Source: a virus. From it: a DNA stretch of 39,251 bases. Positions within the stretch are counted from its first letter, which is position 1; each line of letters begins with the position of its first letter. The notes under the pieces are model-generated. The model searched no databases. It saw only the letters and a program-made list of their open reading frames with translations, and was not told where the DNA came from. Below are positions 2,623 to 10,154 of the stretch, in pieces. The stretch is taken from positions 1 to 39,251 of the IMG/VR virus record IMGVR_UViG_3300028608_000039. One strand, 5' to 3'. Both the position numbers and the translations under genes were made by a program.

Positions 2623-3197
2623 GCTGCTCTCCTGAGTTCACGGGTCTTGGCGCGGTATTCGGCGGTAATGGCCTTGAGGTCTTCGATGGTGTAGCGCTTG
2701 GGTTCATGCGGGCCTTCTAACCATTCAACGAGCTCGGCGCCGATGCGCTTCACCAGCTCAATGCGGTAGTTCACGATGTCGCCGGACTTATGGGTATTGC
2801 AGGGCGAGCACTGGCGGTGGCAGTTGAGCGGCTCGAAGCGCAGCGCAGGGTTGCTGCCGACGGTTCGATAGTGCCCAGCGTCGTACTTGCCCTGGTGATG
2901 ACGACCACAGCTGATGCATGGCAGCTCGGCGTCACGCTCACGCACCCAGGCGTTGAATGCGGTCTGTGCCTCGCGCATGTACTGCCCCTTCGGCTTAACG
3001 CGCTCCTTGGCCGCTCTCAGCTCCTTGCGGCCTACGTCGGCAAGGGCCTTGCGAGCCTTGTCAGCGTTCACGTCCTTGGTTGCCAGTCCACAGGCTGGGC
3101 TGCAGACCTTCTGACCGAGGCGTTGCGGCACGAATGAGGCCCTGCACTCTTCGTTGATGCAGGTCTTTGGGCGTGGTTGTTTGGATGTAAGGCTCAC
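2619..3197 (-). CDS. ninG: NinG-like recombination protein
   Basis: A 192-residue protein when started at GTG 3197, which overlaps the previous stop (GTGA) and has GGAGG about 7 bases upstream. A longer reading to 3251 is possible but lacks such a site. It has an N-terminal zinc-binding region (TCINEEC and KVCSPACG) and a central HNH-like region (LPCISCGRHHQ, DAGHYRTVG, CHRQCSPCNTHKSG). This is the layout of lambda NinG/Rap, a Holliday-junction resolving nuclease of the phage recombination pathway. It lies with NinB in the PR-type operon, as in lambda. Confidence 0.9.
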   Translation of the reverse strand: MSLTSKQPRPKTCINEECRASFVPQRLGQKVCSPACGLATKDVNADKARKALADVGRKELRAAKERVKPKGQYMREAQTAFNAWVRERDAELPCISCGRHHQGKYDAGHYRTVGSNPALRFEPLNCHRQCSPCNTHKSGDIVNYRIELVKRIGAELVEWLEGPHEPKRYTIEDLKAITAEYRAKTRELRRAA

Positions 3198-7943: not shown

Positions 7944-7989
7944 GCCGCAAACGACTATTGATTAATGCGATGCTAAGCCGTATATGGAT
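7919..7989. promoter_or_regulatory. Right-type operator group (three sites)
   Basis: Three 14-bp sites in the same orientation: AGCCGTATACGAAT (7919-7932), AGCCGCAAACGACT (7943-7956) and AGCCGTATATGGAT (7976-7989). The core CGTATACG is self-complementary, as expected for a dimeric repressor. Their positions relative to the two divergent promoters copy lambda OR1-OR2-OR3. Confidence 0.8.
7958..7986 (+). promoter_or_regulatory. PRM-like repressor promoter
   Basis: TTGATT (7958-7963), a 17-base spacer and TATATG (7981-7986). The third operator covers the -10, so binding there would shut off repressor synthesis. The expected start near 7993 leaves almost no leader before the ATG at 8003. Confidence 0.65.
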
Positions 7990-8002
7990 TAGGGGTCAGA
8001 CG

Positions 8003-8671
8003 ATGCTTTCGATACGCCAAATTTTGGCCAACAACCTGAAGTTCTTGATGGCGAGCAACGCCAACCTGGACACGCAGCAGAAGCTGGCCGATAAATCAGG
8101 TATCGGTCAGCCGACCATTGGTCGCACGCTTAGAGAAGAATCTGATGCGGGGATCAGCACGGTGCATAGTCTGGCCAAGGCGTTCAAGATCGAGGCGCAA
8201 GACTTGCTGGATGCAGGCCTTATCGATCGCCTAAAGGGAGAAGGCTCAAATGTCAGTTCCGGGCATGGCCTTTACAATCCAGTACCTTTGATTTCATGGG
8301 TAGCAGCCGGGATGCTAGACGAAAGTTTTGACCTGCTTGAGAAACACGACGCCGAGGAATGGCTGCAATGCCCCTACTCGCACAGCTCCAGTTCTTTCTG
8401 TTTGCAGATAAAGGGACTGAGCATGTGGCCGGAGTACAGGGACGGAGAAATCATTCTGGTGGATCCGGAAGTAGAGGCCAGGCACAACAGCGATGTAGTG
8501 ATACGAACGCCAGAGCCTGACAGGAAGACGACGTTTAAGAGGCTACAGATAACAGAAGACGGCACATATCTCATGGCGCTCAACCCGGATTTCCCGGACC
8601 GCTATATACAGATGCCGGAAGAAACGAAGATATGCGGTGTGGTTACAGGCTCATGGATGAGGCGCAGGTAG
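8003..8671 (+). CDS. CI-like repressor with S24 autocleavage domain
   Basis: A 222-residue protein from ATG 8003; AGGGG lies 7 bases upstream, so the longer reading from 7958 is rejected. Residues 25-45 form the helix-turn-helix (QQKLADKSGIGQPTIGRTL). The C-terminal half is a LexA/CI S24 peptidase domain: an Ala102-Gly103 cleavage pair (WVAAGML), catalytic Ser140 in GLSMWP and Lys179 in TTFKRL. DNA damage would promote RecA-stimulated self-cleavage and induction. It keeps both early promoters off through the flanking operators. Confidence 0.95.
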   Translation: MLSIRQILANNLKFLMASNANLDTQQKLADKSGIGQPTIGRTLREESDAGISTVHSLAKAFKIEAQDLLDAGLIDRLKGEGSNVSSGHGLYNPVPLISWVAAGMLDESFDLLEKHDAEEWLQCPYSHSSSSFCLQIKGLSMWPEYRDGEIILVDPEVEARHNSDVVIRTPEPDRKTTFKRLQITEDGTYLMALNPDFPDRYIQMPEETKICGVVTGSWMRRR

Positions 8672-8724: not shown

Positions 8725-8789
8725 AACCGCATACGAATATTTTTGAAAAAATAGTCGAATACGGCTTGACGAGATAACCGTATACGCAT
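8725..8789. promoter_or_regulatory. Left-type operator group (three sites)
   Basis: AACCGCATACGAAT (8725-8738), AGCCGTATTCGACT on the minus strand (8766-8753) and AACCGTATACGCAT (8776-8789). They share the consensus of the three sites beyond the other end of the repressor gene. Two of them overlap the -35 or fill the spacer of the plus-strand early promoter, mirroring lambda OL. Confidence 0.8.
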
Positions 8790-8794
8790 AACTT
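8766..8794 (+). promoter_or_regulatory. PL-like early promoter
   Basis: TTGACG (8766-8771), a 17-base spacer and TAACTT (8789-8794). One operator lies in the spacer and one over the -35. It would drive the long plus-strand early operon that ends at the excisionase-like gene. Confidence 0.7.
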
Positions 8795-9010
8795 TAGAGC
8801 CATGAACGGCTAACACAGAGTTCGCCAGGACCTGAAAGGGACCGCCACACGACTGGTGAAGCCGCCAGATAGCACGGGATCAGCGAAGTGATCTCTCAGC
8901 CCTCTCCCCGAGGACCGACTGAAACCAAGTTCTTTAAGCAGAACGGAACCCACAGATTTACTGATGCCGCTTCGATGAGGCGGCATTGGAAATCAACGGA
9001 GGGCAAGACG
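8795..9010 (+). promoter_or_regulatory. Structured early leader without a convincing gene
   Basis: About 215 bases with no good ORF. Small inverted repeats follow one another: AGCC/GGCT near 8798-8810, GATCA/TGATC near 8879-8893, GTTCT/AGAAC near 8930-8945, and the strongest, ATGCCGC/GCGGCAT at about 8963-8987, 12 bases before the GGAGGG ribosome site of the first gene. The reading of the same frame from 8888 lacks a ribosome site. A role in antitermination or translation control is possible. Confidence 0.45.
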
Positions 9011-9337
9011 ATGAACAAGCATTTCACTGAATGGATGCAGGAAGGTCGCGACGCAGAGTGGCGGGAAATGACCACACGCTTGTTGCTGGTCGATGGGAGC
9101 AGCCTGTCAATCCAGGCATCCGAAGGTCACTACTGCGCGCCGCGCTGCGACTTTGATGACTACGACCAGTACTACGAATTTGAAGTTGGTTTCCCATCCG
9201 CTCACATGGATGAACTGGCGGCATATCAGGACGGCCAAGGCGATCAAACTTCTTCTGTTTTTGGCTACGTGCCGAAGGAAGTGATCGAATCTCTGGTCAA
9301 TGCCCGCGGCGGCGTTCAAGGATTCGACAAGCGATGA
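9011..9337 (+). CDS. First early-operon gene, acidic protein of unknown function
   Basis: A 108-residue protein from ATG 9011, with GGAGGG about 7 bases upstream. It is strongly acidic in the middle (CDFDDYDQYYEFEVGFP) and ends in a helical segment (PKEVIESLVNARGG). First-expressed phage genes are often host-takeover or anti-defence proteins, and acidic ones can mimic DNA. That is only a suggestion here. Family not recognised. Confidence 0.75.
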   Translation: MNKHFTEWMQEGRDAEWREMTTRLLLVDGSSLSIQASEGHYCAPRCDFDDYDQYYEFEVGFPSAHMDELAAYQDGQGDQTSSVFGYVPKEVIESLVNARGGVQGFDKR

Positions 9338-9438
9338 AGCATCACCTCAGCCAATTCGACGAGTTGGCTGAAGGATGTGGACGAAGCAAAATTCCTCGCA
9401 AAGAGGCCACCTACATCGACAACCTGACGCAACACCCA

Positions 9439-9540
9439 GTCGCTGCCTCCAGTAGAGAGCGACCGGATATCAGATGGCTTCCTGCTGTTTCAGGATCGCC
9501 ATCTGGCTTTACAAATGCCTCTCACACCCCGGGAGGCATT
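9439..9540 (+). ncRNA. Three tandem RNA hairpins in a non-coding gap
   Basis: Hairpin A pairs GTCGCT (9439-9444) with AGCGAC (9458-9463). Hairpin B pairs CAGATGGC (9471-9478) with GCCATCTG (9498-9505), with an inner CCTG/CAGG stem. Hairpin C pairs AATGCCTC (9514-9521) with GAGGCATT (9533-9540). All are perfect stems, and there is no convincing gene between 9338 and 9565. The block ends just before the AGGAG of the next gene. Whether it is a separate RNA, an antitermination element or a leader is unknown. Confidence 0.55.
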
Positions 9541-9565
9541 CGAAAGCCACGAAGGAGTAAGCGTG

Positions 9566-9760
9566 ATGAAAGTCATCGGCATGTACGACACCAAAGGCAA
9601 GCTGATCAAGTACCGCGATCAAATCGAGGTCTCTCAATTTTCCAATCGCCTGATGGATAAAAACGGAACCACTTGGGCGACGAAAGACAGTTACGGCGAT
9701 TGGGTAAGCCCTGAATCGTTTGCGATGGGCATCAAGACCGTGATCGCCGTAACTGAATAA
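9566..9760 (+). CDS. Small phage protein between two structured RNA blocks
   Basis: A 64-residue protein from ATG 9566, with AGGAG about 9 bases upstream. The sequence MKVIGMYDTKGKLIKY...GIKTVIAV looks like a small beta-sheet domain. The upstream extension to 9515 would run through hairpin C and is rejected. Function unknown. It is notable that it lies between the hairpin blocks at 9439-9540 and 9801-9898. Confidence 0.7.
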   Translation: MKVIGMYDTKGKLIKYRDQIEVSQFSNRLMDKNGTTWATKDSYGDWVSPESFAMGIKTVIAVTE

Positions 9761-9800
9761 CCCTCTCCGTGCACGTCTGCCAGACGCAAATGGCCCGATA

Positions 9801-9898
9801 TCTCCATGGTGATGGAGAGGCTGTATCGGAATGACCACTGTGACAATGCCAGCGCCGTGATTGCAAAGCGGTTTGCTTCAGTGGTCATTCTCATACAG
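9801..9898 (+). ncRNA. Long inverted repeat / structured RNA
   Basis: A 7-bp hairpin TCTCCAT-GGTG-ATGGAGA (9801-9818) is followed by a long one. CTGTAT (9821-9826) pairs with ATACAG (9893-9898), then a 2x2 internal loop, then GAATGACCACTG (9829-9840) pairs perfectly with CAGTGGTCATTC (9879-9890). The 38-base apical part can form GCAAA-GCGG-TTTGC. Eighty bases later comes an intrinsic terminator. Nothing codes here convincingly. It could be a small RNA, an attenuator or a protein-binding site. Confidence 0.6.
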
Positions 9899-9979
9899 CG
9901 CAACGCGGAGGATTTGCAGCCATGTAACAGACAGCCACGATCCGACGCCCCATGCGTCCGCTCGTTATGTAGGGAAGGT

Positions 9980-10006
9980 AAAGCCGGCTTTCGAGTCGGC
10001 TTTTTA
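9980..10006 (+). terminator. Intrinsic terminator inside the early operon
   Basis: AAAGCCGGC, a 6-base loop, GTCGGCTTT (one G-T pair), then a T tract. It follows the structured RNA and comes before the next small gene at 10029. Early transcription must pass it, so it implies antitermination or a deliberately short first transcript. Confidence 0.8.
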
Positions 10007-10028
10007 TTGCTCTATCGAGTGCCATGCC

Positions 10029-10154
10029 ATGAAACGCACCCCAAGAATTCCCCGCAAGCCCCGCCCCGACGTCCACGACTGCGCCAAAGGCCGTATGCAT
10101 GACCCTGTCGCCAAGAAGGTCGTTACCACTATGCCGGGCGGGTATATCGCATGA
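10029..10154 (+). CDS. Small basic phage protein
   Basis: A 41-residue protein (MKRTPRIPRKPRPDVHDCAK...) that is highly basic and proline-rich in its first half. The stop overlaps the next start (ATGA), which supports translation. A longer reading from 9861 would cross the inverted repeat and the terminator and is rejected. Such basic N-terminal regions occur in RNA-binding antitermination proteins of the lambda N type, but this is a weak analogy only. Confidence 0.6.
   Translation: MKRTPRIPRKPRPDVHDCAKGRMHDPVAKKVVTTMPGGYIA

Follow-up and report, generated by a model that had tools for sequence, protein, structure and literature searches.

A structured region in front of the early genes

Why would a phage keep a series of hairpins, ending in a terminator, in front of its main early genes? 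This question is raised by the viral record IMGVR_UViG_3300028608_000039, from a temperate phage of Pseudomonas type, of which we analysed a stretch of 39,251 nucleotides, hereafter the window. The region under study is preceded by a gene for an S24-type cI repressor (7958-8671). To its left, on the other strand, lie replication genes (for an initiation protein and a DnaB-like helicase), and to its right genes for a RecE-type exonuclease and an integrase. The structured element, all of whose features given below are on the plus strand, is located 3' of cI, in a direction like that of lambda pL, after a boxA-containing leader and before the main early genes; in lambda, pL, nutL, N and tL1 occupy the matching place. 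In the named phages phiPSA1, Medea1, PseuP_224 and Cruim01, the counterpart is an unannotated gap from the repressor gene to the early genes.

Direct comparison of the window with near and distant phages gave only pieces of similarity, and the Staphylococcus matches in the distant comparison were 29-nt matches over the terminator. No similarity of the window to plasmids was found. In Rfam, no match above the gathering score was obtained in the window and lax thresholds likewise gave nothing usable, the best weak match being RcsR1 with 20.8 bits where 60 are needed. Elsewhere in the window, the gene at 13880-14749 matches phage phosphoadenosine phosphosulfate reductase families.

Compensatory changes in the tandem hairpins and in a long stem

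A preliminary description of the locus reported three perfect tandem hairpins. All three are present; "perfect" is slightly too strong, since A1 (9436-9466, CCAGTCGCT/AGCGACCGG) is paired at 8/9. This first hairpin is missing or replaced in several relatives. Hairpin A2 (9471-9505, CAGATGGC/GCCATCTG, with an inner CCTG/CAGG) directly adjoins A3 (9505-9549, GGCTTT..ATGCCTC/GAGGCAT..AAAGCC). When the predicted RNA folding was compared with that of shuffled sequences, we obtained z = -7.2 for 9430-9550 and z = -7.6 for 9470-9550, none of the 200 shuffles being as good in either case, while the controls were ordinary (z = -0.07 for the 64-aa gene described below and +1.65 downstream).

Across relatives, 98.2% of the cells of A2 and A3 (9470-9549) are paired and eight pairs are changed on both sides, with a covariation score of 0.225, compared with 0.109 for shuffles and no more than 0.044 after sliding of the structure. 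A covariance model built on these two hairpins, R1, matches more than 30 loci. In the window, 9470-9549 is the only strong R1 copy, with no second one in the other early operon, and a search of the HK022 genome with E up to 1 gave no match. Many relatives that have the long stem, the minigene and the terminator described below lack the tandem hairpins. Phage UFJF_PfDIW6 carries the tandem hairpins (3044-3123) without the minigene core that is seen downstream of them in the window, which indicates that they form a separate module.

Three blocks are conserved in related contigs (9424-9551, 9758-9835 and 9901-10009); the ORF that separates the first from the second is either absent or replaced by another. 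In the window, this place is taken by a 64-aa ORF (9566-9760), which separates hairpin blocks A and B and can be exchanged: it is 91% identical in L002, replaced in L003 and L004 and absent in L035 and L045. From L002 it differs by 12 synonymous and 6 non-synonymous codon changes; judged by this pattern it behaves like a gene, in agreement with the preliminary description.

The same description mentioned a further hairpin and a two-part inverted repeat of 6+12 bp with an inner hairpin, and we found both. The hairpin, TCTCCAT/ATGGAGA (9801-9818), belongs to block B (9758-9819), which is conserved in relatives. The repeat forms a long stem, V (9820-9899), whose arms (9820-9840 and 9879-9899) have 21 nt, are 90% complementary in 6+12 parts and enclose a small inner stem. 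Folding gave z = -4.5 for 9758-9900 and -5.5 for 9820-9899, again with 0/200 shuffles as good in each case. The lower part of stem V, GCATCGG/CCGATGC, is kept, and the ten pairs above it vary greatly from locus to locus, with compensatory changes and four or five pair types per position. In this upper part 9.2 of the 10 positions are paired, compared with a mean of 5.7 and a maximum of 6.8 in 2000 shuffles of the arms; as the arms were picked by best pairing, only this comparison with shuffled arms counts as evidence. Two alternative pairings with the core of the minigene were considered and rejected: that of the 5' arm of stem V, for which 7 bp are possible in the window, is not kept in relatives on inspection, and that of GCAAAT in block B with ATTTGC in the core is broken in L003.

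According to the preliminary description, a lack of compensatory changes in related phages would speak against an RNA function. In fact, covariation is strong both in the tandem hairpins and in the inverted repeat and, on this comparative ground, the region preceding the terminator very probably encodes a functional early RNA element.

A conserved start-stop minigene

Between the inverted repeat and the terminator lies an island that the preliminary description did not contain, of the form GGAGG-ATTTGCAGCC-ATG-TAA. It comprises a Shine-Dalgarno sequence (9907-9911), a spacer, a start codon (9922-9924) and immediately a stop codon (9925-9927). In our comparisons, this predicted start-stop minigene (9907-9927) is the most constrained feature of the region, and its surroundings (9900-10010) are not unusually folded (z = -0.5) except for the terminator. 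The island recurs in dozens of viral contigs and in Pseudomonas prophages: an 18-mer of block 9901-10009 matched 58 viral contigs, in two cases evidently by chance, and a 17-mer matched 97, of which some are chance matches. Chance matches of the core in host coding sequence, recognised by their long frames, were set aside.

We then examined 80 distinct contexts, selected solely by the presence of a terminator at most 260 nt downstream, a criterion blind to frame. An in-frame stop occurs within three codons in 78 of them (at once in 74), compared with 8 and 1 in the other frames. The two exceptions, L081 and L094, have longer frames and, among the 78, L110 has a different context and may be a chance match. 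As these contexts share descent, the 80 cannot be counted as independent events, and the independent weight lies in the different solutions. Indeed, several in-frame variants of two or three codons exist (M-K, M-H-Q, M-Y-Q, M-P-Q, M-H-I, M-G-N and M-Q-E). In addition, loci with a diverged core and spacer and a similar 3' module keep a minigene, which is ATG-TAA in phiPSA1, M-K in PseuP_224, M-D in L067 and M-K in L074. When the six bases after the spacer were left free in the search, ATG was present in 35/35 genuine loci and was directly followed by a stop in 34 of them (TAA in 31, TGA in two, TAG in one; the last locus has TAC).

The encoded peptide shows no conservation between loci. Sequence is conserved from about -16 to +11 around the ATG, the search pattern itself having fixed positions -14 to +2 except for one mismatch, and is nearly unconstrained outside; this span is close to the footprint of an initiating ribosome. 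From the set of loci that gave this profile, only the profile was used: a count of 72/74 in the cluster is not evidence, because membership was filtered partly by stop distance. From +15 relative to the A of the ATG, a hairpin can be read in the sequence (9937-9965), and relatives have CCGACGCNNCATGCG-type hairpins at about the same distance. A six-codon ORF starting in the loop of this hairpin, at 9952, is not kept in relatives and was rejected. These comparisons are best read as selection that keeps a Shine-Dalgarno sequence, a start codon and a near-immediate in-frame stop, and not a peptide.

The leader and the terminator

Upstream, a candidate early promoter, TTGACG-17-TAACTT (8766-8794), lies amid CGTATACG-type operator-like half-sites; we only infer it from the letters, since a consensus scan does not call it. 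It is followed by a boxA-like site, GTTCTTTAAGCA (8929-8940), and in many relatives the motif G[CT]TCTTTA lies upstream of the RNA, at up to 2.6 kb in 56 of the 107 collected contexts as far as the available sequence extends. After this site we observed a leader hairpin (8955-8994), boxB-like by its position, in a segment with a folding z of -5.3 against shuffles (8920-9000); the hairpin stretch 8948-9002 has 98% identity to phages MR13 and MR15. The first gene of the operon is an ORF of 108 aa (9011-9337) with no assigned function, 84% identical in L003 and L004 and weakly matching phrog_18736. No ORF family before the terminator is common to all loci, the commonest being found in 20 of 56, so that no N-like protein is evident.

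At the end of the element, the intrinsic terminator of the preliminary description was recovered (9980-10008) as a stem (9980-10003) followed by a U tract, and most relatives have one at a similar distance. The gap from the terminator to the next gene is 17 to 242 nt in 70 relatives (median 98), and in 69 of these there is no promoter-like site in it; expression of the main early genes thus appears to require read-through. In a lineage with X-CAG-stop minigenes, no convincing terminator was found within 650 nt, which means that control of a terminator cannot be the whole role of the minigene.

Possible role of the early RNA

We propose, with a probability of about 0.5, that the element is a cis-acting leader RNA of the early operon, in which the minigene docks an initiating ribosome and thereby affects read-through or RNA stability. 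The leader transcript would be modular and conserved, built from a boxA-like site with its hairpin, small genes that can be exchanged, the tandem hairpins and the long stem, whose top varies, and would end in a start site of the AUG-UAA type, followed by a terminator that RNA polymerase apparently must pass. An initiating ribosome would dock on the minigene, its stay perhaps being lengthened by the awkward start-stop, and would act in cis on the early transcript. Its action would most likely take one of two forms: it may act with the boxA and hairpin elements in setting how far the adjacent terminator is read through, or it may protect the RNA next to the long (RNase III-type) stem against nucleases, like some known mini-ORFs. 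More broadly, the comparison suggests that many Pseudomonas phages use a folded early RNA and a start-stop to park a ribosome for regulation, not to make a protein. That the AUG-stop of this widespread phage RNA, a reading frame that could not be shorter, is a parking site at which the ribosome itself, in place of a peptide or phage protein, regulates the early operon is a more tentative idea, which we put forward with some reserve.

A predicted short translated ORF near an intrinsic terminator, before an operon, also recalls a leader-peptide attenuator. However, the minigene has only one to three codons and no regulatory codon content, and inspection revealed no mutually exclusive hairpins. 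A ribosome on the ATG would reach to about +15 only and leave the terminator stem (from 9980) uncovered and, by inspection of the folds, we found no alternative pairing usable as an attenuation switch; together these two points weaken the classical attenuation model. Counting against the cis-docking model is the spacer TTTGCAGCC, which is conserved beyond the needs of a plain start site.

The near-invariance of the unpaired core, spacer included, would fit a trans-acting phage noncoding RNA. Its product would be the transcript ended by the terminator, which may be cut at the long stem, and towards a host small RNA or an RNA-binding protein the unpaired core GAGGATTTGCAGCCATG would act either as a seed or as a decoy that imitates a host translation start site. 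A long structured RNA with an intrinsic terminator at its end, and a stem top that is hypervariable yet always paired, agree with such a product. The transcript may also be a programmed short early one. Against a trans-acting RNA, the element lies inside an operon, the exchangeable ORFs directly 5' of block B leave it no conserved promoter of its own, and the downstream early genes seem to require transcription through it. A seed also leaves unexplained the in-frame stop of the two- and three-codon variants and of the diverged cores, and we consider a trans-acting RNA unlikely.

The put element of phage HK022, with its copies putL and putR in both early operons, binds the beta-prime zinc-binding domain of RNA polymerase and suppresses terminators. 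It consists of a pair of neighbouring stem-loops, about 70-80 nt, in the early-operon leader (PMC9378689). In outline, 9470-9549 is similar: two adjacent covarying stem-loops of about 80 nt in an early leader, with a terminator downstream. One could imagine a leader for processive antitermination, in the manner of put or of rrn boxA, in which RNA polymerase, once modified by the boxA-like site and the tandem hairpins, passes the terminator, the minigene being an accessory. The boxA-like sequence and hairpin in the leader of many relatives, and a terminator that must be passed with no conserved protein encoded before it, favour this possibility. On the other hand, the tandem hairpins are missing from many relatives that have stem, minigene and terminator, the other early operon has no copy, and the model finds nothing in HK022. 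As a full explanation we hold it to be rather improbable; as for the suggestion in the preliminary description, RNA-based antitermination is possible for the leader, with its boxA-like site and hairpin and its tandem hairpins, and membership in the put family is not supported, given the missing HK022 match and second copy and the many relatives of the 3' half that lack these hairpins. The position after cI, the direction, the boxA-like site with its hairpin and the early terminator likewise recall lambda nutL-N-tL1, from which the locus differs by having no common N-like protein before the terminator and by its long structured RNA and minigene.

Lambda bar provides an example of phage minigenes of very few codons, and a similar minigene could burden host translation early in infection by sequestering ribosomes or tRNA. 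Very short minigenes with a strong Shine-Dalgarno sequence can indeed be toxic (PMC8708949). However, most copies described here have no elongator codon, which makes drop-off of an elongator peptidyl-tRNA impossible, the codons vary between lineages, and toxicity needs no structured setting such as the leader in which the minigene is conserved. We regard this explanation as highly improbable.

The docking of a ribosome, which we prefer, has closer precedents in regulatory mini-ORFs (axe-txe mg2, LEE1 ler and six-codon mini-ORFs), where ribosome docking stabilises the mRNA or affects a neighbour (PMC8708949). As in these, the minigene has a Shine-Dalgarno sequence and one or a few codons, with a selected start-stop (78/80 against 8 and 1), and in the known mini-ORFs the peptide is not the point, the effects in cis falling on an adjacent gene or on the stability of the RNA. 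Unlike them, it belongs to a covarying RNA found in many phages, is mostly AUG-stop and stands before a terminator. Ribosome profiling has also revealed start-stop ORFs in bacteria (PMC11955535).

In a literature search of incomplete coverage, we found no description of this early RNA; its parts are of known kinds, and their conserved combination in phage early operons appears to be new. To our knowledge, evidence of selection keeping bacterial start-stop ORFs is scarce, and the minigene family offers a clear evolutionary signature of such selection over many phages. It also suggests a way in which these phages, with no recognisable N protein, may run their early operons. The natural variants (start-stop, two or three codons, with or without a terminator) make the role of a parked ribosome directly testable.

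Variable genes and hairpins around the element

The slot between the boxA-like site and the RNA holds exchangeable small genes (in L009, L010, L039 and others). One family of slot genes, TerB-like judging by sequence, is present in 20 of 56 loci, and the slot gene of L093 resembles a periplasmic binding protein. In phage MR13, the copy of the 8948-9002 hairpin sits between the annotated early genes gp46 and gp45, and L023 carries two hairpins similar to it.

Directly after the terminator, an ORF of 41 aa (10029-10154) can be read; it is basic, beginning with MKRTPRIPRKPRPD, and a similar ORF start follows the terminator in L002, L015, L045 and L055. A second subtype (L009, L023, L037 and similar loci) has an extra conserved GTCAGCACTCT..AGAGTGCTGAC hairpin between the terminator and the next gene, and a motif related to this hairpin persists in some of the loci that have no terminator.
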